From a virus: a stretch of 40,244 nucleotides of DNA. The number at the start of each line of letters is the position of its first letter. The first letter of the stretch is position 1. Shown piece after piece: positions 2,504-39,659 of the stretch. Position numbers and translations under genes: made by a program. The notes beneath the pieces were generated by a model, which saw nothing but the letters and a program-made list of their open reading frames with translations, did not search any database and was not told the DNA's origin. The stretch covers positions 1-40,244 of IMG/VR virus record IMGVR_UViG_3300047383_000363; one strand, 5' to 3'.

Positions 2504-2511
2504 TATTTATG
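2504..2511 (-). promoter_or_regulatory. Candidate late promoter CATAAATA before the HNH gene
   Basis: CATAAATA on the minus strand overlaps the stop codon of the VWA gene and lies 28 bases before the HNH ATG. NATAAATA is the late promoter motif proposed for cyanophages (T4: TATAAATA). An 8-base motif in AT-rich DNA can occur by chance, so this is only a candidate. Confidence 0.35.
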
Positions 2512-3844
2512 CGGCTTTTTCGTAGTAGGCGTGTTCACCGAACGGTGGGATAATTCTATCGTTACCGTGAATTACAAAAAGTGTATCACAGTATGCCTCG
2601 TTACCCCATGAACCAAACGGATACCCATCAGTAAACATTACGAACTTATCAGGATTGATATCATTATCTTCCATAAAGTTCCAGTTACATTCGAAATCAG
2701 TACCACCACAACCAATGATGTTATAGTCTTTGATTTCATCTGCATTCATAGGAGTAAATTCTTTAAACGACTCTGCATATACCTGAGTATCGAAAGTCCA
2801 AACTCTAAGTCTAAAGTCCTGAAACTGTTGCATGATTCCACCAACTTCACCCATGAAGTCTGCAATCATACTATCATCAATAGAACCTGAAACATCAAGA
2901 CCAATACAAACATCAATCTTTTCATCATTGTCCTGTGCAGGAAGATAGATACCCATTGACCTAGATTTTCTTGATTGTCTCATCCATGTAAAATCTGCTT
3001 TAAGTAAACTTAAGATAGAATTGTTAAGCAACTGTCTCCAGTCCATCTTAGGTTCTGTCATAGACTTAATAAGCCTTGCAACATCACCTGGCATATTACC
3101 AGCACCAGCAGTTTGAGCCGCTTGAATAACAGCCTGTTTCATCTGGTCTTTAATTTGTTTTGCCTCAGCTTTAGAAATTTTGATAGGTGCTTTTCTACCA
3201 GTAGGATCATTCTTACCAGTACCACCTTGAGCATCATTACCATCACCAAACAAGTGTTCATCAAGAGTTTGCTTGTCCTCATGTTGCTCCTTGTTTTGTT
3301 TCATGTATTGATAGATTTCCTCAGTATACTTTCCATGATACTTAGGATCATACAATGCAGACTTTGGCATAACACCAATTTTACTTTCAACACAAGCCTG
3401 ATTAACTTTATAGTCAGCGGCTATGTTCCAAAGTTTAGGATCTCTGTCCTCTTCTTTATAATCTAGTAATCGACCACCTTCACCACAATGGTCATAAACA
3501 CAGTGCATTACCTCGTGACCAACTACAAAGTCAATCTCTTCCGGAGTTAATGTTCTGAAAAAATCTGAGTTGTAATAAAAATGTTTACCGTCAACTGCGG
3601 CAGTTGGACACCATTCTGCCTCAACTAATTTCAATCTTGTAGCAAGTGTACCAAAGAACGGATGTTTGATAAGCATTCTAACACGACCAGAAACAATCAT
3701 TTCTTTGACTTCCCTGTTAGTGTATTCGAATACTACCGGCTCCTCAGAGTTCTCATCTACTTCAATACCTTCTTTTGCGAAAAGGTCGTCAACTAAAGAA
3801 TCTAAATCTTTAGGGTCTTTATCTGTCTGAGTGTTTGTGTTCAT
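2507..3844 (-). CDS. DUF2201-type protein: N-terminal metallopeptidase-like domain plus C-terminal VWA domain
   Basis: The N-terminal half carries a zinc-protease signature, HEVMH at residues 110-114 with further His119, inside the segment around TPEEIDFVVGHEVMHCVYDH. The C-terminal half is a von Willebrand A domain with a MIDAS motif, DVSGS at 317-321, and a later FTDG. This matches the VWA-like proteins that pair with MoxR AAA+ ATPases; such pairs act as chaperones or in metal-centre insertion, and a MoxR gene lies at 10796-11920. The frame is open from 3868, but the promoter -10 ends at 3878, so an ATG at 3868 would be almost leaderless. The ATG at 3844, preceded by AAAGG, is the better start (445 aa). 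The substrate is unknown. Confidence 0.88.
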   Translation of the reverse strand: MNTNTQTDKDPKDLDSLVDDLFAKEGIEVDENSEEPVVFEYTNREVKEMIVSGRVRMLIKHPFFGTLATRLKLVEAEWCPTAAVDGKHFYYNSDFFRTLTPEEIDFVVGHEVMHCVYDHCGEGGRLLDYKEEDRDPKLWNIAADYKVNQACVESKIGVMPKSALYDPKYHGKYTEEIYQYMKQNKEQHEDKQTLDEHLFGDGNDAQGGTGKNDPTGRKAPIKISKAEAKQIKDQMKQAVIQAAQTAGAGNMPGDVARLIKSMTEPKMDWRQLLNNSILSLLKADFTWMRQSRKSRSMGIYLPAQDNDEKIDVCIGLDVSGSIDDSMIADFMGEVGGIMQQFQDFRLRVWTFDTQVYAESFKEFTPMNADEIKDYNIIGCGGTDFECNWNFMEDNDINPDKFVMFTDGYPFGSWGNEAYCDTLFVIHGNDRIIPPFGEHAYYEKAA

Positions 3845-3877
3845 TTTTGATTTACCTTTCGCCTTCATTATGTATAT

Positions 3878-4388: not shown

Positions 4389-4416
4389 ATAATAGCACAA
4401 ATCGTGATTCTGTCAA
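4389..4416 (-). promoter_or_regulatory. Extended -10 promoter of the secreted-protein gene, family A
   Basis: TTGACA (4416-4411), a 16-base spacer ending in TGC, and TATTAT (4394-4389). The spacer carries the arms AATC-GT-GATT. It starts five bases after the ketoacyl synthase stop. It shares the AAACTTGACAGA flank with the other family-A promoters but differs downstream of the -10. Confidence 0.8.
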
Positions 4417-4420
4417 GTTT

Positions 4421-5569
4421 TTAGCTAATAAGAATACTAGCATTAGTACCGCCAAAACCAAAGGAATTGCACAATACAGACGATATTTGATGTGGTTCTG
4501 ATTTACTACGTATGTTTGGACTATATCCCTCAGAAACCTCTTCTACGTTCACCGTAGGCGGTATAATAGCATGTTTTAGAGACATTATAGACACTGCTAA
4601 TTCAACTGCACCAGCGGCTCCCATAAGATGTCCTAGTTGAGATTTATTAGCACAAATTGGAACATCTTGTAACCCTAGTCTATTGATTGCGTCTAATTCT
4701 GCATAGTCTCCCATTGGTGTACTTGTAGCATGTACATTGATTAATCCTGGAGTTCTACCCTTGAGTGTATCTTTCATACATTGTTCTACATGCTCACCTT
4801 TTGGATTAGGTGCGACAGTTTGATATGCATCATTATTCATAGAATACCCATCAATCTTACATATCGTTTTGTCTGTCTTTTGATTACTCAGTAAGAATAA
4901 AGCACCGCCTTCACTTAGTACTAATCCATCACGTTTAGTATCCCAAGGTCTAGATGCTACCTCTGGTGTATCATTATATTTGGTTGATAAGGCTCTTAGT
5001 TTTCCCATTTGTTTATACGCATCTTCATATATAGTTTGGTCTACTGCACCTACAATAACGTTATCTAACATACCCATTTCAATCATCATGGCACCCCATA
5101 TCGCACTATAAACTCCTGTACTACATGCGGTCGTAACCATTGCACTAGCACCAGTAAATCCATATTTCATATTGATATTGTGTGCGGACATATCAGGACA
5201 GTAATGATATATTCCGTCAGTGTTTTCTCTGTTGGCTCTTAGTGCATCTAAGTATACTACAAAGCCTGGAGATACAACTACACCAGTTCGTTTAGGATCA
5301 AGTCCTTCTAAATCTAAATCACTTGCTAGTGCTAACGCCCATTGCATATGCTCTGGTAATCTATCACGTTCTGCTTCTGTAATGATGGGATAATCTTCTG
5401 CATTGAAATGAAACTCACCACCAACTTTACTTCTTGTATACCTACTTGCATTAGGATCAAACTTTGTAATTGGTCCGTAACAAACTTTATTATCTATAAT
5501 AGACTTCCAAGTTTGTTCTAAGTTACCAAAAGGTGTAAATGCTGATACACTATTAATATATACTGTCAT
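4421..5569 (-). CDS. Beta-ketoacyl synthase (FabF/KAS II-like)
   Basis: A full-length 382-residue thiolase-fold condensing enzyme. The catalytic triad is intact: Cys149 in TTACSTG, His280 in VHATSTPMGD, and His314 in NKSQLGHLMGAAG with Lys309. A GFGGTNAS motif closes the protein, as in FabF. The family joins an acyl group to malonyl-ACP with loss of CO2. It is slightly shorter than E. coli FabF (about 413 aa). It is the last gene of a six-gene operon and its start overlaps the desaturase before it by 17 bases. No acyl carrier protein is seen in the window, so host ACP or another phage gene would be needed. Whether it elongates host fatty acids or builds a special product is open. Confidence 0.93.
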   Translation of the reverse strand: MTVYINSVSAFTPFGNLEQTWKSIIDNKVCYGPITKFDPNASRYTRSKVGGEFHFNAEDYPIITEAERDRLPEHMQWALALASDLDLEGLDPKRTGVVVSPGFVVYLDALRANRENTDGIYHYCPDMSAHNINMKYGFTGASAMVTTACSTGVYSAIWGAMMIEMGMLDNVIVGAVDQTIYEDAYKQMGKLRALSTKYNDTPEVASRPWDTKRDGLVLSEGGALFLLSNQKTDKTICKIDGYSMNNDAYQTVAPNPKGEHVEQCMKDTLKGRTPGLINVHATSTPMGDYAELDAINRLGLQDVPICANKSQLGHLMGAAGAVELAVSIMSLKHAIIPPTVNVEEVSEGYSPNIRSKSEPHQISSVLCNSFGFGGTNASILIS

Positions 5570-6338
5570 GCTTTAGGTCCGTTGCTATAAAATATTTAAT
5601 GATAAGTCCTGTTGGATCGATTTGATACCATTTTTCTTGAGTGGTATAACTTAAACTATTATTGTGATGATTGTTATGCCAGCCTTCACCCATTGTAATT
5701 ATTGCTGATAACCATTGGTTTCTACTTTCATCACCGGTGTCGTGGTCTTTACTTCCAAATACATGTGCAACATGTACAATACCAAATGTACCTGCCCAGA
5801 ACATATATACTCCTGTAAATCCAACAATGAATCCTGGTAATAATGGATTAATAAGACCTAATACTACCATTGTTCCAAAGATAAGATAGAAATAATATCT
5901 CTGCATGAATCTAACTTGTGGATCCATAACTAAATCTTTAAACATCTTTTTTTCCATAGGCATAGGAGAATACATACCTAATGCATTTTGCCACCATTTA
6001 TGATGTTTAGGACTGTGTATGTCTTTATCTTCGTCTGAATGTTTGTGATGTAATCTATGTCCAGCTAATACTGTTATTGGTTTACCTGTGCATCCATACA
6101 TACCTAACCATAATAAAAGATACTTTCTGAAATTGTCTGTCTTATAACTTTTGTGTGCCCATAGTCTATGCCAACCCGCATATCCACCTACGGCAGTTGC
6201 CATTACTGCAAATAGTAATGCCCAACCAATGTACTGTGGTGCCATAAATGCACTATAAATTGAAATGACATGTAGTACAAGCCAAAGTCCTCTCATTCTC
6301 CAACCATAATCAAATTTCAATATTAAATCTTTTATCAT
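5553..6338 (-). CDS. Membrane fatty acid desaturase 1 (acyl-CoA/delta-9 type)
   Basis: This 261-residue membrane protein has the three histidine boxes of the desaturase di-iron centre: HRLWAH at 57-62, HRLHH at 94-98 (followed by KHSD), and HNNHH at 221-225. Hydrophobic segments lie near residues 17-50 and 150-190. The box pattern is that of the delta-9 acyl desaturases, which introduce a cis double bond using O2 and an electron donor such as ferredoxin. The ATG at 6338 overlaps the upstream stop (TAATG). It is the longer of two desaturases in the operon. They are not recent duplicates, since little matches outside the boxes, so different positions or substrates are likely. Confidence 0.93.
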   Translation of the reverse strand: MIKDLILKFDYGWRMRGLWLVLHVISIYSAFMAPQYIGWALLFAVMATAVGGYAGWHRLWAHKSYKTDNFRKYLLLWLGMYGCTGKPITVLAGHRLHHKHSDEDKDIHSPKHHKWWQNALGMYSPMPMEKKMFKDLVMDPQVRFMQRYYFYLIFGTMVVLGLINPLLPGFIVGFTGVYMFWAGTFGIVHVAHVFGSKDHDTGDESRNQWLSAIITMGEGWHNNHHNNSLSYTTQEKWYQIDPTGLIIKYFIATDLKHDSIY

Positions 6339-6955
6339 TAAACGTTTACTCCATAATTTATAGGTTCTAGTGTAGCAAAATCACGAAGGTTATAACGGTA
6401 TACATCTTGCTTAACTCCGTACAGTGGAAAATCTTCATATATCATAGTTAACTTTCCTTGCTGAGGATATATCCATTTAGCCGCCTTCCATATCTTATGC
6501 ATAGTTCCTGTATTGTCCTCAAATGGGGGACCTACAGTTGTATTTACACATAATGTGGCACCTTGTTCTAGTGCCCAATCTATCTGCCATGGTATCATTC
6601 TACCAAAACCAAATTCGTTTGTCATTTGTGTAGGTCTTCCTCTAGACCCACATGTTAACCTCCACTCTTTTAGTGTAGCAAGTCGATAGTTAACATAAAA
6701 ACATTTATCATGTATATGAGGCAAATAATGAGCACCTGACATAGCAATTATATCATCTTTATGATACACGAATGTCCAGTATTCCATTGCACCCCATTTA
6801 CCAAACTTCAATGCTTTTAAACTTGCATTGTTTTTGTTTCCTTCTTCACCGCATTTTACACAAAACTCTTTCAACTTATCTAGTTGAGAAGGATCATATT
6901 CTACAGTTCTAAACTCATAACCATTTACACCAGTGAATTCTTCTAATACTTTCAT
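6338..6955 (-). CDS. GNAT-like acyltransferase-fold protein, tentative (205 aa)
   Basis: I recognise no exact family. The protein has alternating strands and helices, with the central stretch KDDIIAMSGAHYLPHIHDKC, then FYVNYRLATLKEWRLTCG followed by SRGRPTQMTNEFGFGRMIPW. This resembles the strand 4, pyrophosphate-loop and helix region of GNAT acyltransferases, and similar proteins occur in marine phages. If correct, it would move an acyl group from CoA or ACP to an amine. Within an operon for acyl activation, desaturation and condensation, an N-acyltransferase that attaches the finished chain is attractive but is inference. Both ends overlap neighbours (ATGA at the end, TAATG at the next start), so it belongs to the operon. 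Confidence 0.5.
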   Translation of the reverse strand: MKVLEEFTGVNGYEFRTVEYDPSQLDKLKEFCVKCGEEGNKNNASLKALKFGKWGAMEYWTFVYHKDDIIAMSGAHYLPHIHDKCFYVNYRLATLKEWRLTCGSRGRPTQMTNEFGFGRMIPWQIDWALEQGATLCVNTTVGPPFEDNTGTMHKIWKAAKWIYPQQGKLTMIYEDFPLYGVKQDVYRYNLRDFATLEPINYGVNV

Positions 6956-7674
6956 TTTTTAGCCAACAATACTGGTATATAATACTTGCCAGCCCAATCT
7001 GTTAAATCGTCATGAGACATATCTAATCTACTAGAATACTTGTGATGTATATCATGGCATCCTTCGCCCATCATCCATATGTTTGAAAAGCCACCTAGCT
7101 TTCTTGGACCATCGTCATGTGCCGCAAAGTTTAACCAGTTCAGTGCTAACCACATATGAGTAAAGTTAAATGCTTGCCAGACAACTAACCAAGGAGTGAT
7201 AACAAAATGCATAATAGTTATCAATGCATATAGTTTCCAATAGTGTTTACTAATAAAAACAACATCACGTTTCTTTAATAAAAATCTCATGCTGATATAA
7301 TCAGTTGGTGTGTTGTACCAACCTAACCACATTTTAAAAAATCCTAGTTCTTTAGGATTGTGTGTATCATTTTCCTTATCTGAATGTTTATGATGATTTA
7401 AGTGTGAATATACATAATGAATAGGATTACCATTTGCACTAATAACAATACTATAAAGCATTGCAATTCTTCCTACAATGTGTGGAACAAATTGGTCATG
7501 ACATAACCATCTATGATAAGCAATTTGTGATAATGCATTTGTTAGACAACCGTACAATGTAAATAACAATGCCATTTGCCATGAACCACCTGATATAAAG
7601 TAAGCTGGTATACCTATCAATGCAATTAAAAGCATTGTGAATACTTTTACAGTAACCTTATACTTATATTCCAT
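6952..7674 (-). CDS. Membrane fatty acid desaturase 2
   Basis: A 240-residue membrane desaturase with three histidine boxes: HRWLCH at 54-59, HLNHH at 91-95 (followed by KHSDKEND), and HDIHH at 207-211. Membrane segments are likely at about residues 10-50, 67-82 and 145-180. It is short for the family but keeps all the iron ligands. The start ATG overlaps the halogenase stop (TAATG). Having two different desaturases in one operon suggests two double bonds, or oxidation of two substrates. The related hydroxylase and ketolase families share these boxes, so hydroxylation cannot be excluded. Confidence 0.92.
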   Translation of the reverse strand: MEYKYKVTVKVFTMLLIALIGIPAYFISGGSWQMALLFTLYGCLTNALSQIAYHRWLCHDQFVPHIVGRIAMLYSIVISANGNPIHYVYSHLNHHKHSDKENDTHNPKELGFFKMWLGWYNTPTDYISMRFLLKKRDVVFISKHYWKLYALITIMHFVITPWLVVWQAFNFTHMWLALNWLNFAAHDDGPRKLGGFSNIWMMGEGCHDIHHKYSSRLDMSHDDLTDWAGKYYIPVLLAKK

Positions 7675-9362
7675 TACGCAATATTCCTAGATGCTTTGGC
7701 CAGTGCCTCTTTTAATACTTGCTTGTAATCTTTCCCTTCAAATAAAAACTTACGGTGCCAATCATAGGCATGTGGTGCATACTTACCGTTTTCTTTACTC
7801 ATTTTATTACAGTATTCAAACATGATATTGGCTTTTTCAATTAATTCTTTCCTAGTATTTAGTTTGACACTATCATCAAACTTGTTCAAATACACTGCTA
7901 ACATAGCCCACATGTAGTCTGGATACACACCATTACCTATATGGTTTGTAGGTCTATTATACTCATTCCAACATGCTTCTTTATGATTTCTTTCAATACC
8001 TAACTGTTTTTGTTTACGCCAGAAAGGTGTGTCTTCTCTATCTGATAGAGTAAAATGATATGCAATAAAGTCTGCGATACCATCTTCTAATTGGCACATG
8101 TTTCTATTATATGCATAAATTTGTGAAGGACTAATTACTGTATCTTTAGAACGATTGATAAGTCTATGCACTAACTGAATACATGCCTGTGCAACATACA
8201 ATGAATTGGCTTCCATTGGTTCTACAAATGCACCAGCCATTCCGATACCAACTACATTTTTATTCCAAGGAGTTTTCATACGACCTGACTCCCATGTAAT
8301 ATGTCTTGGTTCTTTAATAAACTTATACCCGTCCCAATACTTCATAAACTTTTCTTTGGCTTCTTCTGGACTTATCTCAGTTCTATCGAAGATATAACCT
8401 GAACCCATACGATTGAATAGTGAGATAATAAATGTCCAACCTTCATCGCCTGCATATGATTGTGTATAAGGTCTAAACTCTGAATAAACATCTTTGTATT
8501 CTACTGGACCTACAATCGCATCACGTGTAAAGATATGGTCATAATCATGCCAACCATTGTTCATTGTTCCCGTTAGTAAACGATTGAAGCCAGTTGCATC
8601 ACAGAATAAATCTGCTTCAAATTCTGATCCATCTTCTAATACTAATTTCTCTACATAACCTTCATTGTCTTTTACAATATCTTTTACATGACCCCAAACA
8701 TGCTTTACACCATTAGGCAATGCAACTCTATCTCTAACTACTTCTGGAAATCTTTCTGCGTCTACATGATATGTTTTTGCCTGCCAGTTACCAACAAGAA
8801 TATTATCATCCATATCAAATGGGGCTTTATTCATGTCCATTAGATATGTTTGTTCTTGCATATCCTCAGACATTTCCCACCAGTTCTTTCTACCATCACG
8901 GCATAACTGTAACCAGTAATCATTCCATTTATCATCTACACCAGGATTACCTTTTGAGTTAGTAAAGAAATCTTTTGTTTGTAATTGATTATAGAAACTT
9001 GTTGTTAAATGTTTTTCAGGTAAAGCAAATGAGAATGAAAAATATTGTTCTTCAAACTTAGAACAGTTCCAGTGATTAGTAACATGGTGTCTGTTACCTT
9101 CTCTATTCCAACCAACAAACTTATTACCTAGTTTGTATATTGAATTTGTATGACTCATCCAGTCACGTTCTTCAATACCCATTTCTTTAAAGAAGTCACC
9201 AAGTTGAGGTATAGTACTTTCGCCAACACCTATGATGCCTATCTTTTTACTTTCTATTAATGTGATATCGATATCAGGATTTTTATATTTTAAATATCCA
9301 GCAGTGAACCAACCTGCGGCTCCACCACCTAGAATAACAATTTTATTTACTTTACTTTTCAT
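7674..9362 (-). CDS. Flavin-dependent tryptophan halogenase family protein
   Basis: A 562-residue member of the PrnA/RebH family. FAD binding is shown by GGGAAGW at 12-18 and GVGESTIP at 45-52. Lys77 (in NSIYKLGNKFVGW) lines up with PrnA Lys79, which carries the chloramine or directs hypohalous acid, and the EPMEAN segment at 381-386 matches the catalytic Glu region (LEPLES in PrnA). The WxWxIP signature that marks halogenases is altered to GWTFIISLF at 308-316. A marine cyanophage member, VirX1, is known to halogenate with a preference for iodide, so a phage halogenase has precedent. No flavin reductase gene is seen nearby. It overlaps the ligase by 11 bases. The substrate is unknown; the acyl product of the operon is one candidate. 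Confidence 0.9.
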   Translation of the reverse strand: MKSKVNKIVILGGGAAGWFTAGYLKYKNPDIDITLIESKKIGIIGVGESTIPQLGDFFKEMGIEERDWMSHTNSIYKLGNKFVGWNREGNRHHVTNHWNCSKFEEQYFSFSFALPEKHLTTSFYNQLQTKDFFTNSKGNPGVDDKWNDYWLQLCRDGRKNWWEMSEDMQEQTYLMDMNKAPFDMDDNILVGNWQAKTYHVDAERFPEVVRDRVALPNGVKHVWGHVKDIVKDNEGYVEKLVLEDGSEFEADLFCDATGFNRLLTGTMNNGWHDYDHIFTRDAIVGPVEYKDVYSEFRPYTQSYAGDEGWTFIISLFNRMGSGYIFDRTEISPEEAKEKFMKYWDGYKFIKEPRHITWESGRMKTPWNKNVVGIGMAGAFVEPMEANSLYVAQACIQLVHRLINRSKDTVISPSQIYAYNRNMCQLEDGIADFIAYHFTLSDREDTPFWRKQKQLGIERNHKEACWNEYNRPTNHIGNGVYPDYMWAMLAVYLNKFDDSVKLNTRKELIEKANIMFEYCNKMSKENGKYAPHAYDWHRKFLFEGKDYKQVLKEALAKASRNIA

Positions 9363-10722
9363 TCACAAACTTCTCTCTCACAACATGTCGTTGCACCTTA
9401 CCCATTCTATTTCTAGGCAAAGGATCATTAGTAATAATTATTTCTTTTGGTATTTCGTACTGGAATAATTTGTCCCTCGCAAATTTGAGTAATTCCATTG
9501 TATTTATCTCTGTATCCGATGATACAATAGCAACTATTTCCTTTTCTCCTAAGTCTCTATCACGGTATGTTACGCATACTTCATTAACATCAGGGTGTGG
9601 AATGAATGCGTTTTCAATACTTACAGGTGATATATTGAAACTGTTTACCTTAAATAAATCTGTTTTTCTTGATTTGTAAAATAATAGATTATGTTGACGT
9701 TCAAGCACATCACCAGTACACCAATAACCTTCATCGTCTATAGGCGTTTCTTGATTCAAATAACCTTTAGTAATGAGTGGACCCTTAATCCAACATACAT
9801 TATATCTATCTAATTTGAATTGATAGTTTTCAGTAACGTGAATTTGTAATGGATATGGGTCGTCTGGTACTGCTAAGTGTGTGAACATTGGCACATGAGT
9901 TTCAGTGCAACCAAATAGATTTCTTAATGCTGGTGCACCTTTATCGAATAGTTCTTGTAACATTTCATCAGGGCAAACCGTACTACCAAATCCTAATTCA
10001 CGCCAATGTGATAAATCTAATTCTTTCCAGCCTCTTGTTTTATGTAAAGCAACCATCATAGCTGGAACTATAATACCTATTGTAGGTTTGTGTTCTTTGT
10101 TTATCTCAATAAATTTTCTTGGATTAAACATTTCCATAAGTACCGTACAACCTTTTATTAGACCAGGTAACACATATAGATATAATCCACCTATAGTCCA
10201 AGGAGGTAATTGAGATAGTACAAAATCATCTGCAACCAAACTATGAATTTTAATACTTTGTATTGAACCAGATGTACATGCAAACCTTGTGTGTGGGACA
10301 GCCTTTGGTTCTCCTGTAGTACCGCTAGTAAAGATAACAGTATACAGGTCGCTTGTATTCTTTTTGAATAGTAAACCTTGATTATGAGGTTTTAGATTTA
10401 AAGCATCTTCCTCATTTAAAATGACATGGTCAGGTTTACTAGCCGATTTAATTTGATCCAATACATGTTCTGGTAAGTCTGGCATAGTAGGCATAAATGT
10501 TATACCTAAACTATCACATGCTAGAACCATTCTTAAGTAATGATATTCTTTTTTACTGGCAAACAATACACGTTCACCAGGTTTGATTGCAGTTGAGATT
10601 GTGGCTGAAAGTTTTTCTACACTCTCTACCAATTCTGAATATGTATATTTTTTGTCGTGACAGATAAGAGCGGTCTTTCCGCCGTTACTTTTTGCCTGTA
10701 CTTTTATTGCTTCCCAAATCAT
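9352..10722 (-). CDS. Acyl-AMP ligase / acyl-CoA synthetase family protein
   Basis: A 456-residue ANL-superfamily adenylating enzyme with all core motifs: TSGTTGEPK at 132-140 (phosphate loop), GCTET at 271-275, TGD at 336-338 with ribose-binding Asp338, and PRNRMGKVQR at 436-445 with catalytic Lys442. The family activates a carboxylic acid with ATP and passes it to CoA or a carrier thiol. It is the first gene of the operon. The promoter -10 ends ten bases before the ATG at 10722, so its message would be nearly leaderless; the next in-frame Met is residue 65, too far in. Fatty acid is the likeliest substrate given its neighbours, but amino or aryl acids are also used by this family. Confidence 0.92.
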   Translation of the reverse strand: MIWEAIKVQAKSNGGKTALICHDKKYTYSELVESVEKLSATISTAIKPGERVLFASKKEYHYLRMVLACDSLGITFMPTMPDLPEHVLDQIKSASKPDHVILNEEDALNLKPHNQGLLFKKNTSDLYTVIFTSGTTGEPKAVPHTRFACTSGSIQSIKIHSLVADDFVLSQLPPWTIGGLYLYVLPGLIKGCTVLMEMFNPRKFIEINKEHKPTIGIIVPAMMVALHKTRGWKELDLSHWRELGFGSTVCPDEMLQELFDKGAPALRNLFGCTETHVPMFTHLAVPDDPYPLQIHVTENYQFKLDRYNVCWIKGPLITKGYLNQETPIDDEGYWCTGDVLERQHNLLFYKSRKTDLFKVNSFNISPVSIENAFIPHPDVNEVCVTYRDRDLGEKEIVAIVSSDTEINTMELLKFARDKLFQYEIPKEIIITNDPLPRNRMGKVQRHVVREKFVNEK

Positions 10723-10731
10723 AATATATTT

Positions 10732-10760
10732 ATTATAACAAAAAAAGGGAGAGAAGTCAA
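10732..10760 (-). promoter_or_regulatory. Sigma70-like promoter of the ligase-halogenase operon, nested in a terminator
   Basis: TTGACT (10760-10755) lies in the loop of the terminator at 10739-10772. It is followed by exactly 17 bases and a perfect TATAAT (10737-10732) with an extended TGT. The spacer is the terminator's 3' arm and T-run. Transcription would start near 10725, three bases or so before the ATG. Confidence 0.78.
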
Positions 10761-10772
10761 CACCTCTCTCCC
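10739..10772 (-). terminator. Intrinsic terminator after the MoxR gene
   Basis: On the minus strand an eight-pair GC-rich stem GGGAGAGA / TCTCTCCC (10772-10765 and 10754-10747) closes a ten-base loop and is followed at once by seven T. It lies 23 bases after the MoxR stop. It should end MoxR messages, so the ligase operon depends on its own promoter. Confidence 0.88.
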
Positions 10773-10795
10773 TGCTTAAACCAATAATGTCTGCT

Positions 10796-11920
10796 TTATT
10801 GGTTGTGAGCCTCGATAATTAGTTTACCGTATTTCTTGAAGAACTCCTCGATACATGGAACCTTTCTAGGCTCAAGTGGGAGTTTGTAAACTTTAAGTGC
10901 AGTTCTACCACCTAGAACAATCATTTCAGTTTCAAAGTTATCCATCATGAACTTAAAGAAGTTATTAGCCATGTCGTATAACTTGTCAGAACCTTTGTTC
11001 TTTTCTGCATACTCTTTTAGTTCGTAACAAAGTGATGCAGTAAGTGAAAACATTGCTGAGATTTCCTTACCTTCTCTTGATAAAGTTTTTACTTTACCTG
11101 AAAGAATATCAGTTGGGTTTGGAAGTTTCCCAGAGATAGCCCTGTGAGCCATAAACTTAGTAGCAACACCGTCACCAACAGTACCAGCAACCAAGTCATG
11201 AAGTTTATTATCCTCGATAGTCTCACCTTCTTGTGGCATCAACTGTGATGTAAATGTCCAAGACCTTGGAGTTGCGAAAGCCCTTGATGCAGTTTTAGGA
11301 TCAAAGTTAAACAAGTCCATCTTGTTTGATGTTAAGTAACCAATAACATCAGAATGGATTTTGTTTTCAAGAGCCCAAGTCTGCCAATCTTCAAAGTCAA
11401 CACCCATTTCTAAGTGTACAAATCTGTTAGCAAGTGGAGAAGGCATTCTATAAGCAACACCTCTATCTGATTCCCTGTTACCAGCGGCAACAATAAGAAC
11501 ATTATCAGGGAGTGTGTAAGTACCCAATCGTCTGTTAAGAATAAGTTGATAAGCCGCCGCTTGTACTGATTGCGGTGCTTGGTTCATTTCATCTAAGAAC
11601 AAAACAACACATTCGAATTGGTCAGCTAATTCTTGAGTAGGCAAATCAGCAGGCGGAGCCCACATCATTTGACCTGTTTTCTCATTATAGTATGGGATAC
11701 CTCTTAAGTCAGTTGGCTCCATAAGAGCAAGTCTGAGGTCAATCATCATACCAGCACGTTCTTGTGTGATAGTATCAACAATCTCAGATTTACCGACACC
11801 CGGAGGGCCCCAAATAAATACCGGTCGCTTTCTATTAAAAGCATAATTTACTTCTGATTTGATATCGCTAGGTCTTACAATCCTAACATCTAAATCGTTC
11901 ATTGAAACTTGTGCAGACAT
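10796..11920 (-). CDS. MoxR-type AAA+ ATPase
   Basis: A 374-residue AAA+ ATPase. Walker A is GPPGVGKSE at 38-46, Walker B VVLFLDEMN at 105-113, sensor 1 GNRE at 147-150, and LANRF near 164-167 gives a likely arginine finger. MoxR proteins form hexameric rings and work with VWA-domain partners; the VWA/metallopeptidase gene at 2507-3844 is the obvious partner, and both genes have almost identical promoters. The frame is open from 11944, but the -10 ends at 11954. The ATG at 11920, with AAAGGA eight to nine bases before it, is the better start. The target of this pair in phage infection is not known. Confidence 0.92.
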   Translation of the reverse strand: MSAQVSMNDLDVRIVRPSDIKSEVNYAFNRKRPVFIWGPPGVGKSEIVDTITQERAGMMIDLRLALMEPTDLRGIPYYNEKTGQMMWAPPADLPTQELADQFECVVLFLDEMNQAPQSVQAAAYQLILNRRLGTYTLPDNVLIVAAGNRESDRGVAYRMPSPLANRFVHLEMGVDFEDWQTWALENKIHSDVIGYLTSNKMDLFNFDPKTASRAFATPRSWTFTSQLMPQEGETIEDNKLHDLVAGTVGDGVATKFMAHRAISGKLPNPTDILSGKVKTLSREGKEISAMFSLTASLCYELKEYAEKNKGSDKLYDMANNFFKFMMDNFETEMIVLGGRTALKVYKLPLEPRKVPCIEEFFKKYGKLIIEAHNQ

Positions 11921-11953
11921 ATTATCAGTTCCTTTCTTTGTCATTATGTATAT

Positions 11954-34902: not shown

Positions 34903-36225
34903 TTAATTATTTACTAGTTCACTAAAATGTGGGAAGTGTTCAGCAAACGATATTTTACGTCTATCTTCTAGTATTTTAAACTGTATTTCAGCAAATTTCT
35001 TAGTATTCTCTGGAACTTCGCTTTCTACTAATGTTTTCATAGTATGCATCAAAGATATATATCTTTGTTTATTTAAAAAATTACCTGGCATGTTCTTAAA
35101 GTAATCTATTTGTTCATCTATCTTATCTGCATGTATTGGGTCTAATGCCGATACTGCTAAATGTTCTGGATTATCTACCCAGTTTTGATGCATTATAATA
35201 TCTTTATCAAATTTAAATTTATTAATCTTATTATTCAAATGTACCAAAAAGTCTTTGAAATAAGGAAGACTTAGACTATTATGGGCACAACCAAATCCTA
35301 ATATAAGATTATCTATAACTTTTGCTTGTTCAAAGAATAGATTTAAGTTATCATCCCATTTGTTGAAGTCTAATCCCCACCTAATCAATTCACTTTTACG
35401 ACCCAATGCTTCACCAGATAATTGCATTTCATATCTGATATTTGGGGTTCTTTTTACAAGTTCAATAAACTTGTCAAACTTATGTTTAGGAAAATTAAGA
35501 TTAGTTGTTACTGTTACTACTACAATCTGTTCTTCTCTTTTTGTATCATTAATCTTAACCATAAAGTCTTCTATGAATTTATACATATGGTCTGTGAAGA
35601 ATGGTTCACCACCGAGTAAACTAAAGTTAACATGTTTTTTACCTTTTAATGCTTTTGACCAATAATCATTTAATATAACTAATAGCTTATCAAACATAGC
35701 ATCGTCTGTATCTGGAAATCTTTGACCAACTTCTTTTTGCCATCTTGTACTAGAACCTGCCCAACAATAAGCACAAGCCATGTTACATTTGTTTGTTAGT
35801 TCTATTTCAATAAACTTAAAGTTATCTAAAGACATCATGTCTTTATGAAACTGTATTCTTCTCTTAGGATGGGCTCTTGCTTTAGAATATTGTTTTAACA
35901 AAGGGTAATCGTAATTCTTCATGTATTCAGTTCTTACACTGTTACCTCCTGCTTGTTCTGTTTTCCAACATAGTTCACAATCTTTATTATGAGTACCACC
36001 ACTTAAGTCATGCTTTCTCTGTTGTAGTATAGGATGATTAAAAATAAAATCCTCTGTTAATGTATCGTAATCAAATGTAAGTTCTTTCATTTGTTCTTTT
36101 GTATAAACAGTTTTGCAACACCACTTAACAGTTCTTTGAGGTAAGGATATAACAACGTCATTCCAAGTTTTGAAACACATTGTATTATGTAAATTATGTA
36201 AGTTTGGATTTAGTTCTACAATCAT
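34903..36225 (-). CDS. Phage radical SAM protein (twitch-type)
   Basis: A 440-residue radical SAM protein. CNMACAYC holds Cys147, Cys151 and Cys154, the CX3CX2C cluster motif, and NFSLLGGEPFF near 200 holds the GGEP motif. The N-terminal 90 residues carry extra cysteines (WCC at 35-37 and CELC at 83-86), which might bind a second cluster or zinc. These proteins occur in several marine T4-like phages and are often labelled twitch-domain radical SAM; substrates are not known. It overlaps the 1145-residue protein gene by ATGA and precedes head-type proteins. It may modify a virion protein or an RNA; neither is shown. Confidence 0.87.
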   Translation of the reverse strand: MIVELNPNLHNLHNTMCFKTWNDVVISLPQRTVKWCCKTVYTKEQMKELTFDYDTLTEDFIFNHPILQQRKHDLSGGTHNKDCELCWKTEQAGGNSVRTEYMKNYDYPLLKQYSKARAHPKRRIQFHKDMMSLDNFKFIEIELTNKCNMACAYCWAGSSTRWQKEVGQRFPDTDDAMFDKLLVILNDYWSKALKGKKHVNFSLLGGEPFFTDHMYKFIEDFMVKINDTKREEQIVVVTVTTNLNFPKHKFDKFIELVKRTPNIRYEMQLSGEALGRKSELIRWGLDFNKWDDNLNLFFEQAKVIDNLILGFGCAHNSLSLPYFKDFLVHLNNKINKFKFDKDIIMHQNWVDNPEHLAVSALDPIHADKIDEQIDYFKNMPGNFLNKQRYISLMHTMKTLVESEVPENTKKFAEIQFKILEDRRKISFAEHFPHFSELVNN

Positions 36226-39200
36226 TTTTTCTTTGTACGCAGTAATTTCTTAGGAAACCCATCTTTGTTTACGTCATTGCCAAACTTTTTTGCTTGTTTA
36301 ACAATCTCGTTAGGTCCTACGTCAACTGTGGTATTTATGCCTGGTACAACACGACCGACCCCACCAGCTTCACTTACTGTTTTTGAAAAAACTTTTTTGA
36401 TAGCATTAACTGTATTACTTGTAGTTGTAGTATGGTGTTTGATTGCTATCCCACCAGCTGATTGCCACGCATTAACATTCTTACCAAAATCATCAATTAG
36501 TAAGTTGGGTGAACCGTCTGGTTTCTTTGCATATTTTGATTTGTTATGGTCAATAATAACTTTCTCTGGTCTAAAGAACCCTAGATGTTTTCTTACCCAT
36601 TCACGTTTACCTGGATCAACATTAGGATCATTTGCTAGAGGAGAACTTAATATTTTATATCTGCCTTTTACTGCTTTGATTGTTTGTAGCAAATCTTTGT
36701 AACCTGATAATGTTGGTAAGTCTTCCCAAAAGTTTGGTGTATCAACAATCTTTTTTAATGCTTTAGGTATATCTCTTTTTGATATATCTCTGTATGATTT
36801 AACACCAACTAGTCTAGCCCATTCATTAAAGAAATCAACTAGAACACCGTCCATATCGACATATACATCTGGAGTACTATCAAGGTCTTCTTTTAAACCT
36901 TTTTCTATTGCTCCCATATAATCAGGTATTTTTGTTTTAACCCATGGACCTCTGTGCATAAATCTTGCACTCATCATAACATTTGTACCACGTAATTCTT
37001 CTGGATCAAATATCATTACTTGATATTGTCTCTTTTCATTATCAACTGCTACTACTTCTACATTCATTTCATCGTACTTCTTACCTTTGTAAGTAATACC
37101 ATGACCTGTCATAAATCTAGCAACTGCTTCGAATAATGCATTTTCTCTAACTGGAACTTTCTTTAGTAGTTCTTCTTTGCTTAATTTATAGTTAGAATTC
37201 ATCCACTCATCTTTTAAATCATCAATCATCTTACCAAGATTAGGGCCAGCTACATAACCTCTTGCTAGTAAGTCTTTACCATTAATTGGAAAGTCTGGTT
37301 GTTCAAATCCCTGTACTGCATCGTATACATCATTCTTGCCGTGCATGTTAGCCCATGCAAGTAAATGGTCTTGTGATGCACCTTTGATAATCATATCTTG
37401 TGCTTGTTTTGAATTAATGTTTTCACCTTTGTGCTTGATTAAGAAGTCAAACATTTCTCTATCGTAATTGCTCATCTTCCAATCTCTTGCTATACTGCTA
37501 CTGTCTAGCATTCTTGCAAGTGCAATAATAGGTCCTGTAGGCTCACCTAGTTTAGCTGGATTGATACCTTCAAGTCCAATCTTACTTGATACGCCTGTCT
37601 TGTTCATCCATTCAAGTGCTTCTTTGGCACTCGAACCCATTAACAATTTGCCCATTTCTTGCCAAATTCTTTCAACAGATAAACCTGTCATACCATCTGC
37701 ATTATCTTTGATTGCATTTAATGTAGCATCGTCCCACTTTGGACTATCTAACTTAGATTGAAATCTAAAGTATCTTAAGATACGCAAATAATCTTCTTTA
37801 ATTCTTTCTTCTGGATCCCCTACGAACCTACTTACTTTATCTTGCAAGTCGTCCATACCACCATTGTAATCATGTACCGTACCGTCAATGTCCATTGACA
37901 TTGCGTTGTATGTTAAGTCTCTACGTTTAGCATCTTCTTCCCATGAACGTACAAATTCTACATCAGCATGTCTACCATCAGTATTTGTATCTGCACGTAG
38001 AGTTGTTATTTCAAAATCTTCACCATCGATAACCGCAGTTATTGTACCATGCTCTATGCCTGTAGGAATGTGTCTGATACCTTCTTTGTCAAGCATAGCA
38101 ATCATTTCATCTGGTGTAGCATCTGTGGCAAAGTCGATATCTTTTGGCTCTTTACCTAATGCAATATCTCTTACTGCACCACCTACTATTCTGACTTCAT
38201 ATTGATTCTTTTTAAATACTTTATCTAGTTTACGAATAGCAGGAGTAATTATTGATTTAACATTTAGTGCTTCCTCGTTCAAAGACTCTTTAACTGAGTT
38301 TTCAAACATTGCGTTACCAAACATATCAAGGTATTCTTGCTCAAGTTCACGATAATTTATTTTATTGTTTGTTTGCATTGCTAACATCTGTGCATAATAG
38401 GCAAGTGAATGTCTAAGTTTACCACCTGTTTCTTTATATTTTCTTGTAAGTATTTTGTGCATCATCTTAGCCATATTAACATATGCTTTCTTATGAATTA
38501 AATGACTAGCCTTACGAGAAAGTAAACCGAAAGGTGTTTCTTCTTTTATGCCATGCTTTTTTCTAAATGCTTTTAAATCATCTTCTGCATCTTTACTTCT
38601 TTTCTTAGATGCCTCAGCATCTTTAACATTATCTGAATGCATCTTATCTACATCGATGCCTTTTCTTTTTAATTGCTTGTTAAAGTTTGCTCTGCCAAAC
38701 GCCTCATCTACTACTGATTTTAATTCATCAGGTAATAATGCGATAGCTTGTTTTCTTAAATTCTGATTGCCCTTTGTCATAACTCTTAGCAAGTCTGCCT
38801 TTTCTGCATGATAGACTTTAGCAAACTTAGGGTCATTCTTACCTATGTCTCTGCCATTGCTTATCAAGTCTGCATACTTAACTGTCTGTGCTTCTGCACT
38901 AACACCTGCTAGTTTATCTCTATCGATTGCTTTACGTGTTTTTCTATTACCGTCTTCTGGTTTACTTACATCAGTAAGTTCAACAACTAGTTTAGCAATC
39001 TTAGGACCAAATTCTCTTGTTACATCTACTGGTGTAACACTTGTATCTTCAACTGTATCATGTAACAATGCGGCCGCTTGTTGTTCTATTGTACCGCCTG
39101 CTTGTTTTACTATGTTTCTAACTTCATCTAAATGGACATAATAAGGATCACCAGTATATTTTCTCTGATGGTTTTTGTGTGCCTCTTGTGCAAACTGTTC

Positions 39201-39659
39201 TGCTTTTTGAATCACGTCCATTGATTCTTCCTCTTCTGTGTAGATATCTTTAAAGTATACACGAGGATATTTTAATGTCAATGCTAATAATTCATTTCCG
39301 TCTGCATTTGCACGTAAAATTGAAACTTTATGACCACTATTAAGAGCCGCTAACCATCTATGATGGCCATCGACAATGTAACTGTCGCTACTTGCTAGTA
39401 ATGGTTTTGGGTTTATACCAGCACCCTTTTCTTTATTTCTTTTTAATTGTTTTTCTACACCTTGGTCAGAAAATTCTTTCTGCATAGGCTTTAAGTCTTT
39501 TGCATCTACTACTTGAGGTCTTAGAGTTACACCATTATCTTTTAGATATTTCTTGTAATCTTCATAGTCATCTGATTTAACCTGAGGCATTTTGTCTCTT
39601 GTGATACCCATAGTATCACTAGCCTTTGGTTTATCTATTTTGAATTCATCTAGGCGCAT
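36222..39659 (-). CDS. 1145-residue multidomain protein: ParB-like, RelA/SpoT-type HD, CCA/poly(A) polymerase and 5'-nucleotidase HAD domains
   Basis: Four enzyme-like domains in one chain. (1) ParB/sulfiredoxin-like, IVDGHHRWLAAL at 95-106. (2) An RSH-type HD phosphohydrolase at about 150-310, with HDTVED at 200-205. (3) A class II CCA/poly(A) polymerase head at 485-600, with GGAVRD at 493-498, DIDFATDATP at 507-516 and RRDLTYNAM at 579-587, followed by its RNA-binding part YLRILRYFRF. (4) A C-terminal 5'(3')-nucleotidase HAD domain with DMDGVLVDF at 935-943 and LLIDDFG at 1053-1059. (I/L)xE sites lie near borders (LDE5, IKE373, LNE462, LFE844, LKE924). Head-protease cutting and packaging of the pieces is inference. 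Confidence 0.85.
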   Translation of the reverse strand: MRLDEFKIDKPKASDTMGITRDKMPQVKSDDYEDYKKYLKDNGVTLRPQVVDAKDLKPMQKEFSDQGVEKQLKRNKEKGAGINPKPLLASSDSYIVDGHHRWLAALNSGHKVSILRANADGNELLALTLKYPRVYFKDIYTEEEESMDVIQKAEQFAQEAHKNHQRKYTGDPYYVHLDEVRNIVKQAGGTIEQQAAALLHDTVEDTSVTPVDVTREFGPKIAKLVVELTDVSKPEDGNRKTRKAIDRDKLAGVSAEAQTVKYADLISNGRDIGKNDPKFAKVYHAEKADLLRVMTKGNQNLRKQAIALLPDELKSVVDEAFGRANFNKQLKRKGIDVDKMHSDNVKDAEASKKRSKDAEDDLKAFRKKHGIKEETPFGLLSRKASHLIHKKAYVNMAKMMHKILTRKYKETGGKLRHSLAYYAQMLAMQTNNKINYRELEQEYLDMFGNAMFENSVKESLNEEALNVKSIITPAIRKLDKVFKKNQYEVRIVGGAVRDIALGKEPKDIDFATDATPDEMIAMLDKEGIRHIPTGIEHGTITAVIDGEDFEITTLRADTNTDGRHADVEFVRSWEEDAKRRDLTYNAMSMDIDGTVHDYNGGMDDLQDKVSRFVGDPEERIKEDYLRILRYFRFQSKLDSPKWDDATLNAIKDNADGMTGLSVERIWQEMGKLLMGSSAKEALEWMNKTGVSSKIGLEGINPAKLGEPTGPIIALARMLDSSSIARDWKMSNYDREMFDFLIKHKGENINSKQAQDMIIKGASQDHLLAWANMHGKNDVYDAVQGFEQPDFPINGKDLLARGYVAGPNLGKMIDDLKDEWMNSNYKLSKEELLKKVPVRENALFEAVARFMTGHGITYKGKKYDEMNVEVVAVDNEKRQYQVMIFDPEELRGTNVMMSARFMHRGPWVKTKIPDYMGAIEKGLKEDLDSTPDVYVDMDGVLVDFFNEWARLVGVKSYRDISKRDIPKALKKIVDTPNFWEDLPTLSGYKDLLQTIKAVKGRYKILSSPLANDPNVDPGKREWVRKHLGFFRPEKVIIDHNKSKYAKKPDGSPNLLIDDFGKNVNAWQSAGGIAIKHHTTTTSNTVNAIKKVFSKTVSEAGGVGRVVPGINTTVDVGPNEIVKQAKKFGNDVNKDGFPKKLLRTKKK

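Follow-up and report, generated by a model that had tools for sequence, protein, structure and literature searches.

A promoter-bounded gene cassette of marine phages that may encode acyl activation and N-acyl transfer

The starter module of jamaicamide comprises JamA, JamB and JamC, to which the halogenase JamD is added, an enzyme that halogenates a terminal alkyne. In the systems of the FeeM-type N-acyl amino acid synthases, a GNAT-fold enzyme transfers the acyl group of acyl-ACP to an amine, and its partners are an acid ligase and an ACP (PMC8762209). Biosynthetic clusters carried by phages are rare, found mostly in temperate phages and mostly devoted to bacteriocins, according to the account of Dragos et al. 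2021 that is cited in PMC10452541. Lone flavin-dependent halogenases have been reported in 20 of 153 cyanophages (PMC10452541); these and VirX1 from cyanophage Syn10 (PDB 6QGM) are single genes whose natural substrate is unknown (PMC8407142, PMC10452541). Text searches of the literature, with most subscription papers outside their coverage, returned no description in phages of a conserved acyl gene set such as the one presented here, in agreement with a previous sequence-only reading of this DNA, which knew of no description of the full set of six genes in a phage.

The window, i.e., the whole stretch of DNA that was analyzed, is a viral record of 40,244 bases. It carries six intact ORFs on the minus strand, which are listed below in the order of their transcription together with the features at their borders.

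10796..11944, minus strand: MoxR-type AAA ATPase, a phage core gene at the upstream border of the cassette site (phrog_1297, 8e-98)
10746..10773, minus strand: terminator-like hairpin after MoxR, whose loop and 3' arm contain the -35 hexamer of the operon promoter
10732..10760, minus strand: promoter-like site of the operon (TTGACT, 17, TATAAT; 11/12 consensus match), preceding LIG in 12/12 relatives checked
9352..10722, minus strand: LIG, AMP-forming acyl/aryl acid ligase, 456 aa (PF00501, 2e-43; PF13193; motifs conserved)
7674..9362, minus strand: HAL, flavin-dependent halogenase, 562 aa (PF04820, 2e-91; Lys77 and Glu384 conserved)
6952..7674, minus strand: DES2, membrane desaturase, 240 aa, with His boxes HRWLCH, HLNHH and HDIHH
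6338..6955, minus strand: GNAT-fold acyltransferase of a phage-specific family, 205 aa (AlphaFold2 pLDDT 89.7; Foldseek GNAT matches)
5553..6338, minus strand: DES1, membrane desaturase, 261 aa, with His boxes HRLWAH, HRLHH and HNNHH (NCBIfam DesA family, 2.7e-12)
4421..5569, minus strand: KS, elongating-type beta-ketoacyl synthase (FabF-like), 382 aa (PF00109/PF02801, 1e-22 to 1e-23)
4389..4416, minus strand: promoter-like site for the next gene, directly after the KS stop (consensus match)
2507..3868, minus strand: VWA/DUF2201 metallopeptidase-like core gene at the downstream border of the cassette site (PF13203, 3e-36; PF09967; syntenic in relatives)

Successive genes overlap by 11, 1, 4, 1 and 17 bases from LIG to KS. 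The recomputed coordinates and overlaps bear out the sequence-only reading, which had described six genes in one direction overlapping by 1-17 bases, and LIG-HAL-DES2-GNAT-DES1-KS is apparently one transcription unit. Four minus-strand promoter-like sites, each with 11/12 matches and a TG extension, lie upstream of MoxR, LIG, a small post-KS gene and VWA. In most of the 12 relatives checked, the site before LIG overlaps a terminator-like hairpin and a further promoter-like site directly follows the KS stop; no site with at least 11 matches is found inside the operon of relatives, with the exception of L070 and L085. Since such sites are consensus matches only and are not enriched overall (38 against 49.5 in shuffles), their weight rests on position and conservation. 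The hairpin after MoxR and the -35 hexamer overlap at 10732-10773 (compared with the corresponding site ahead of LIG in L064-L093); most relatives preserve this arrangement, although the stem differs in sequence.

Host contamination was excluded, as the window carries a T4-type DNA polymerase (phrog_262, 6e-191) and the cassette is flanked by phage core genes. The MoxR gene finds matches in 847 phage records, and the GC content of the cassette shows no clear difference from that of its flanks. Elsewhere in the window, separate parts of a 1145-aa ORF (36222-39659) match the metal-dependent phosphohydrolase, tRNA nucleotidyltransferase and deoxyribonucleotidase families, and the next gene in transcription encodes a radical SAM protein (34903-36225). 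PHROG 1314, which is labelled HNH endonuclease, matches the VWA gene (2507-3868) at 1e-110; given that the adjoining gene (1931-2476) resembles an HNH endonuclease by the sequence of its relatives, this label may be misplaced.

IMG/VR was scanned with KS, ligase, GNAT and halogenase, and all four scans led to one consistent set. LIG-HAL-GNAT-KS is present in the same order and at the same site in at least 29 related viral contigs (those reaching KS), after MoxR and, wherever the contig continues, before VWA. Clustering at 95% identity over LIG-HAL yielded 15 genotypes, the window counted, in which these four genes are syntenic, neither scattered nor single, and this supports the common pathway suggested earlier. 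Values of dN/dS between 0.05 and 0.42 indicate that the cassette genes are under purifying selection. The site is empty in L115 and L116, where MoxR (80% and 78% identical, respectively) and VWA are adjacent without a cassette, and a reduced LIG-GNAT version occupies it in L112. Unrelated auxiliary genes or a chance assembly were ruled out by the synteny across the related contigs covering the region. It is highly improbable that such genes share no pathway and merely gathered at a hot spot of insertion: remote relatives do carry other cargo in the MoxR-VWA interval, among it a lone halogenase in L145, but the order is invariant in 15 genotypes, the genes overlap, there is one promoter-like site, an ACP co-occurs with the cassette and LIG-(HAL)-GNAT recurs in another lineage, where its site is a different one.

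Family searches and motif alignments agree with the earlier family assignments for the six genes and with the statement that catalytic residues are intact in the ligase, the desaturases and the synthase, as are the FAD site and Lys77 in the halogenase. LIG belongs to the ANL superfamily by its P-loop (TSGTTG), its TGD motif and a C-terminal Lys (K442) that is conserved in the alignment. In KS, the Cys-His-His and Lys residues (C149, H280, H314 and K309) are present in all aligned sequences, and the match to the NCBIfam FabF equivalog (2.5e-71, 240.5 bits) stays below its cut-off of 493.75, which leaves KS outside that equivalog. Matches of KS and ligase in named 'phage' records came mostly from unannotated Listeria, Staphylococcus, Enterococcus and faecal 'phages' and were excluded, as they look like host sequence. 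In L010 (11149-11547) and L070 (14114-14512), a 132-aa gene with a CxxC motif follows KS; that of L010 overlaps KS by 4 bases and has no Pfam or PHROG match.

The identity of DES1 and DES2 as desaturases rests on their histidine boxes and on a profile match to stearoyl-CoA desaturase structures (4zyo, 5.4e-27). The boxes HRxxxH, HxxHH and HxxHH are invariant across ten sequences, in keeping with membrane di-iron acyl desaturases. DES2 and DES1 flank GNAT in six of the 15 genotypes (window included; one is cut off before DES1), while the remaining nine have a single different desaturase (two), one placed after KS (one) or none (six). Unsaturation of the product, as proposed from the sequence, is thus optional. 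The same distribution bears on the reading in which the desaturases and KS would alter host fatty acids during infection, the rest being secondary. Although DES1 and DES2 resemble acyl-CoA/acyl-lipid delta-9 type desaturases and KS is FabF-like, such membrane remodelling is quite improbable, as the desaturases are the optional part of the cassette and LIG, HAL, GNAT and KS the constant part.

HAL matches PF04820 with 307.6 bits (cut-off 21), and its N-terminal GGGAAGW provides the flavin-binding motif GxGxxG. K77 aligns with K79 and E384 with E346 of PrnA, and the motif YKLGNKF is found in 12/12 sequences. Free tryptophan is an unlikely substrate, because the halogenase motif WxWxIP is degenerate (WTFIIS in the window; relatives have W-x-F-x-I, and only some of them the P) and because HAL is unaligned with the tryptophan halogenases from about profile residue 91 to 164-195, the substrate-side region of PrnA and RebH. 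Identity to the phage records found is only 25-31%, the top phage match being Syn10 with 26.6%, and the nearest bacterial halogenases from one pattern scan (seven loci, 27-31% identity) have no similar gene set alongside. Among relatives, HAL is the gene that tracks its neighbours least. Comparisons with L064 and L066 indicate that halogenase alleles were probably exchanged by recombination between genomes, since HAL of the window and of L064 are 96% identical, against 79% for LIG and DES2. Lone flavin halogenases also occur inside the MoxR-VWA interval or a few kb off it in remote relatives (L145:12404-13987, L160:5426-7108).

As regards the halogenated substrate, chemistry of the jamaicamide type, leading to a halo-alkyne or halo-alkene, would cast LIG, a desaturase/acetylenase, an ACP and HAL in the roles of JamA, JamB, JamC and JamD. 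The same four enzyme types are indeed present; this route is nevertheless improbable, as HAL is kept without a desaturase in six genotypes, so that its substrate cannot generally need one.

The GNAT was modelled with AlphaFold2 from 25 homologues (pLDDT 89.7, five concordant models), which supersedes a less certain model from nine sequences. Foldseek listed 50 PDB matches, all of them GNAT enzymes (E 2e-6, probability 1.0, TM-score by query 0.39-0.56), so the predicted fold matches the GNAT-like label given earlier to the 6338-6955 product. Sequence searches with the window GNAT gave no Pfam match above cut-off and no match in a collection of 50,697 phage records, and its profile found nothing in the PDB. 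The CoA pyrophosphate motif Q/RxxGxG/A is absent from all GNATs tested (0/13), which fits an acyl donor other than CoA, such as acyl-ACP. Against the FeeM profile (PF21926), the window GNAT has no match and two members of a second family, GNAT2, reach 13-14.5 bits (E 0.03-0.08), below the cut-off of 27. The 'N-' of the proposed N-acylation is read from the modelled fold alone.

By hhalign (99.9%, E 7e-32), the window GNAT shares homology with this second, divergent family (A7). With one A7 member as query, 30 viral contigs were obtained, four of which were not newly found. They represent a second phage lineage without KS, in which nearly all contigs have GNAT2 after or near an ORF of ~480 aa that is called tail-fibre-like from weak PHROG matches, arranged as LIG2-HAL2-GNAT2, as LIG2-GNAT2 or as GNAT2 without LIG2 and HAL2. 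The contigs can be set in a series, from GNAT through LIG-GNAT, LIG-HAL-GNAT and LIG-HAL-GNAT-KS to those with added desaturases, and no evolutionary direction is implied. Since the LIG-GNAT pair recurs in another lineage, with or without the halogenase, ligase and GNAT look like the core and the other genes like additions. N-acyl transfer, for which the sequence-only reading had a 'perhaps', accordingly moves to the center of the proposal. Small DUF6356 membrane proteins adjoin ligase-GNAT modules in two unrelated settings (L096:8736-8954, L112:12835-13116).

The context of this lineage also suggests a different target. The GNAT could attach the acyl group to a tail fibre protein or its amino sugar and so alter host recognition. 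GNATs often acylate proteins, LIG-(HAL)-GNAT directly follows the tail-fibre-like ORF in the second lineage, relatives with the MoxR-VWA pair have ligase or GNAT genes in the vicinity of fibre ORFs that carry Mtd_N (major tropism determinant) domains, and in one case a few genes separate an ACP block from a tail-fibre-like ORF. Virion decoration is still considered unlikely: the cassette of the window lineage does not adjoin a fibre gene, protein modification does not usually involve a KS or membrane desaturases, and the fibre-like label itself comes from weak matches.

An acyl-activation pathway would call for a carrier protein. The earlier finding of no ACP stands for the 40-kb window, but not for related genomes: one or more ACPs, with a canonical DSxD serine, are encoded by 13/16 contigs that carry the cassette and have a length of 55 kb or more (the remaining seven records searched fall below this length or come from the second lineage), compared with 0/15 cassette-less relatives, among them contigs of 202, 320 and 338 kb. 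An example of such a phage ACP gene is L187:5125-5364. Counted per contig, this co-occurrence gives a Fisher p of 3e-6, which is confounded by kinship. The same confounding applies by genotype, where an ACP is present in 6/7 cassette-bearing genotypes versus 0/14 cassette-less records of at least 70 kb, with G024 as the sole close cassette-less relative of useful length; no ACP was found in one cassette-bearing genotype of 71.8 kb. An AcpS-type PPTase is encoded by 2/16 cassette-bearing contigs. Host partners had been implied by the sequence-only reading; the ACP is phage-encoded and does not necessarily come from the host, but a flavin reductase (PF01613) and a ferredoxin (PF00111) were looked for in the phages and none was found, nor was a FabG-like SDR (PF13561). 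Therefore, host reductase or ferredoxin partners are still needed.

One ACP type lies in a block with the order HscB-like, IscA, nitroreductase-like, IscA, ACP and then MotA/ExbB-like. Blocks of HscB-like, IscA, nitroreductase-like, IscA and ACP genes were observed in L187, L191, L192, L195, L196, L198, L243 and L244, and the block is absent in L242; in G024, the MotA-like neighbourhood is syntenic and the block is missing. The first IscA and the nitroreductase-like gene are both present in the four two-desaturase records, the one-desaturase record has this IscA without the nitroreductase-like gene, and three desaturase-free records have neither. As their presence follows that of the desaturases, there is a hint of electron or iron supply for these enzymes, confounded by kinship. 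A second ACP of these phages comes immediately after a radical SAM gene (L189:5084-6296, L194:3939-5098) and precedes several unassigned genes of 330-340 aa, possibly another carrier-protein pathway.

On balance, the promoter-bounded cassette of these marine phages rather probably encodes a pathway of acyl activation and N-acyl transfer. By family, such ligases form an acyl-AMP and then a thioester, ketosynthases a beta-ketoacyl thioester and GNATs an amide, while desaturases oxidize the chain. LIG would adenylate a carboxylic acid and load the acyl-AMP as a thioester onto the phage (or host) ACP, KS would extend the chain by decarboxylative condensation to a beta-ketoacyl-ACP, and the desaturases, if present, would oxidize it. 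HAL would act on an electron-rich carbon: candidates are the alpha-carbon activated within the beta-keto thioester, a carbon at a conjugated or alkynyl site, and one in an aromatic ring. The GNAT would then pass the acyl group to an amine, which could belong to a small molecule, the tail fibre or a glycan. Activation by LIG and transfer by the GNAT would be the core act, with the remaining enzymes tailoring the chain. The alpha-carbon is proposed as the halogenation site in desaturase-free genotypes because the KS-HAL pairing is constant in the lineage of the window; as KS is missing from the second lineage, a mechanism with KS acting first would not be general. The common acyl pathway with N-acyl transfer put forward earlier is retained as far as a shared pathway is concerned, in view of the conserved order, the promoter-bounded unit, the purifying selection and the ACP co-occurrence, with unsaturation now optional. 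More tentatively, the two islands of these large marine phages, operon and ACP/iron-sulphur block, could form a dedicated pathway whose product, an N-acyl molecule or a decoration of the virion, would be halogenated and often unsaturated and would represent a new class among the products of phages.

An acyl pathway that is conserved, and of which other phages have simpler forms, offers a genetic context for finding the substrate of a phage halogenase. It also raises the possibility that phages produce lipid-like molecules or acylate the virions they build. Like HAL, VirX1 is a flavin halogenase of a marine phage (profile match 1.4e-66); HAL differs from VirX1-type lone halogenases in having WxFxI in place of WxWxIP and in its operon with ligase, GNAT and synthase. 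The FeeM clusters share the GNAT fold, the acid ligase and the ACP, together with the sub-threshold similarity of two GNAT2 members, whereas the halogenase, KS and desaturases within the operon are particular to the phage cassette. The jamaicamide module likewise unites an acid ligase, a membrane desaturase, an ACP and a flavin halogenase, a likeness of enzyme type; in the phages, the ACP is encoded outside the operon, the modular PKS is replaced by a discrete KS and a GNAT, and the desaturases are optional. Finally, the clusters surveyed by Dragos et al. 2021 are phage-borne as well, while the genes described here would constitute a pathway for acyl groups, carried by large phages whose DNA polymerase is of the T4 type.
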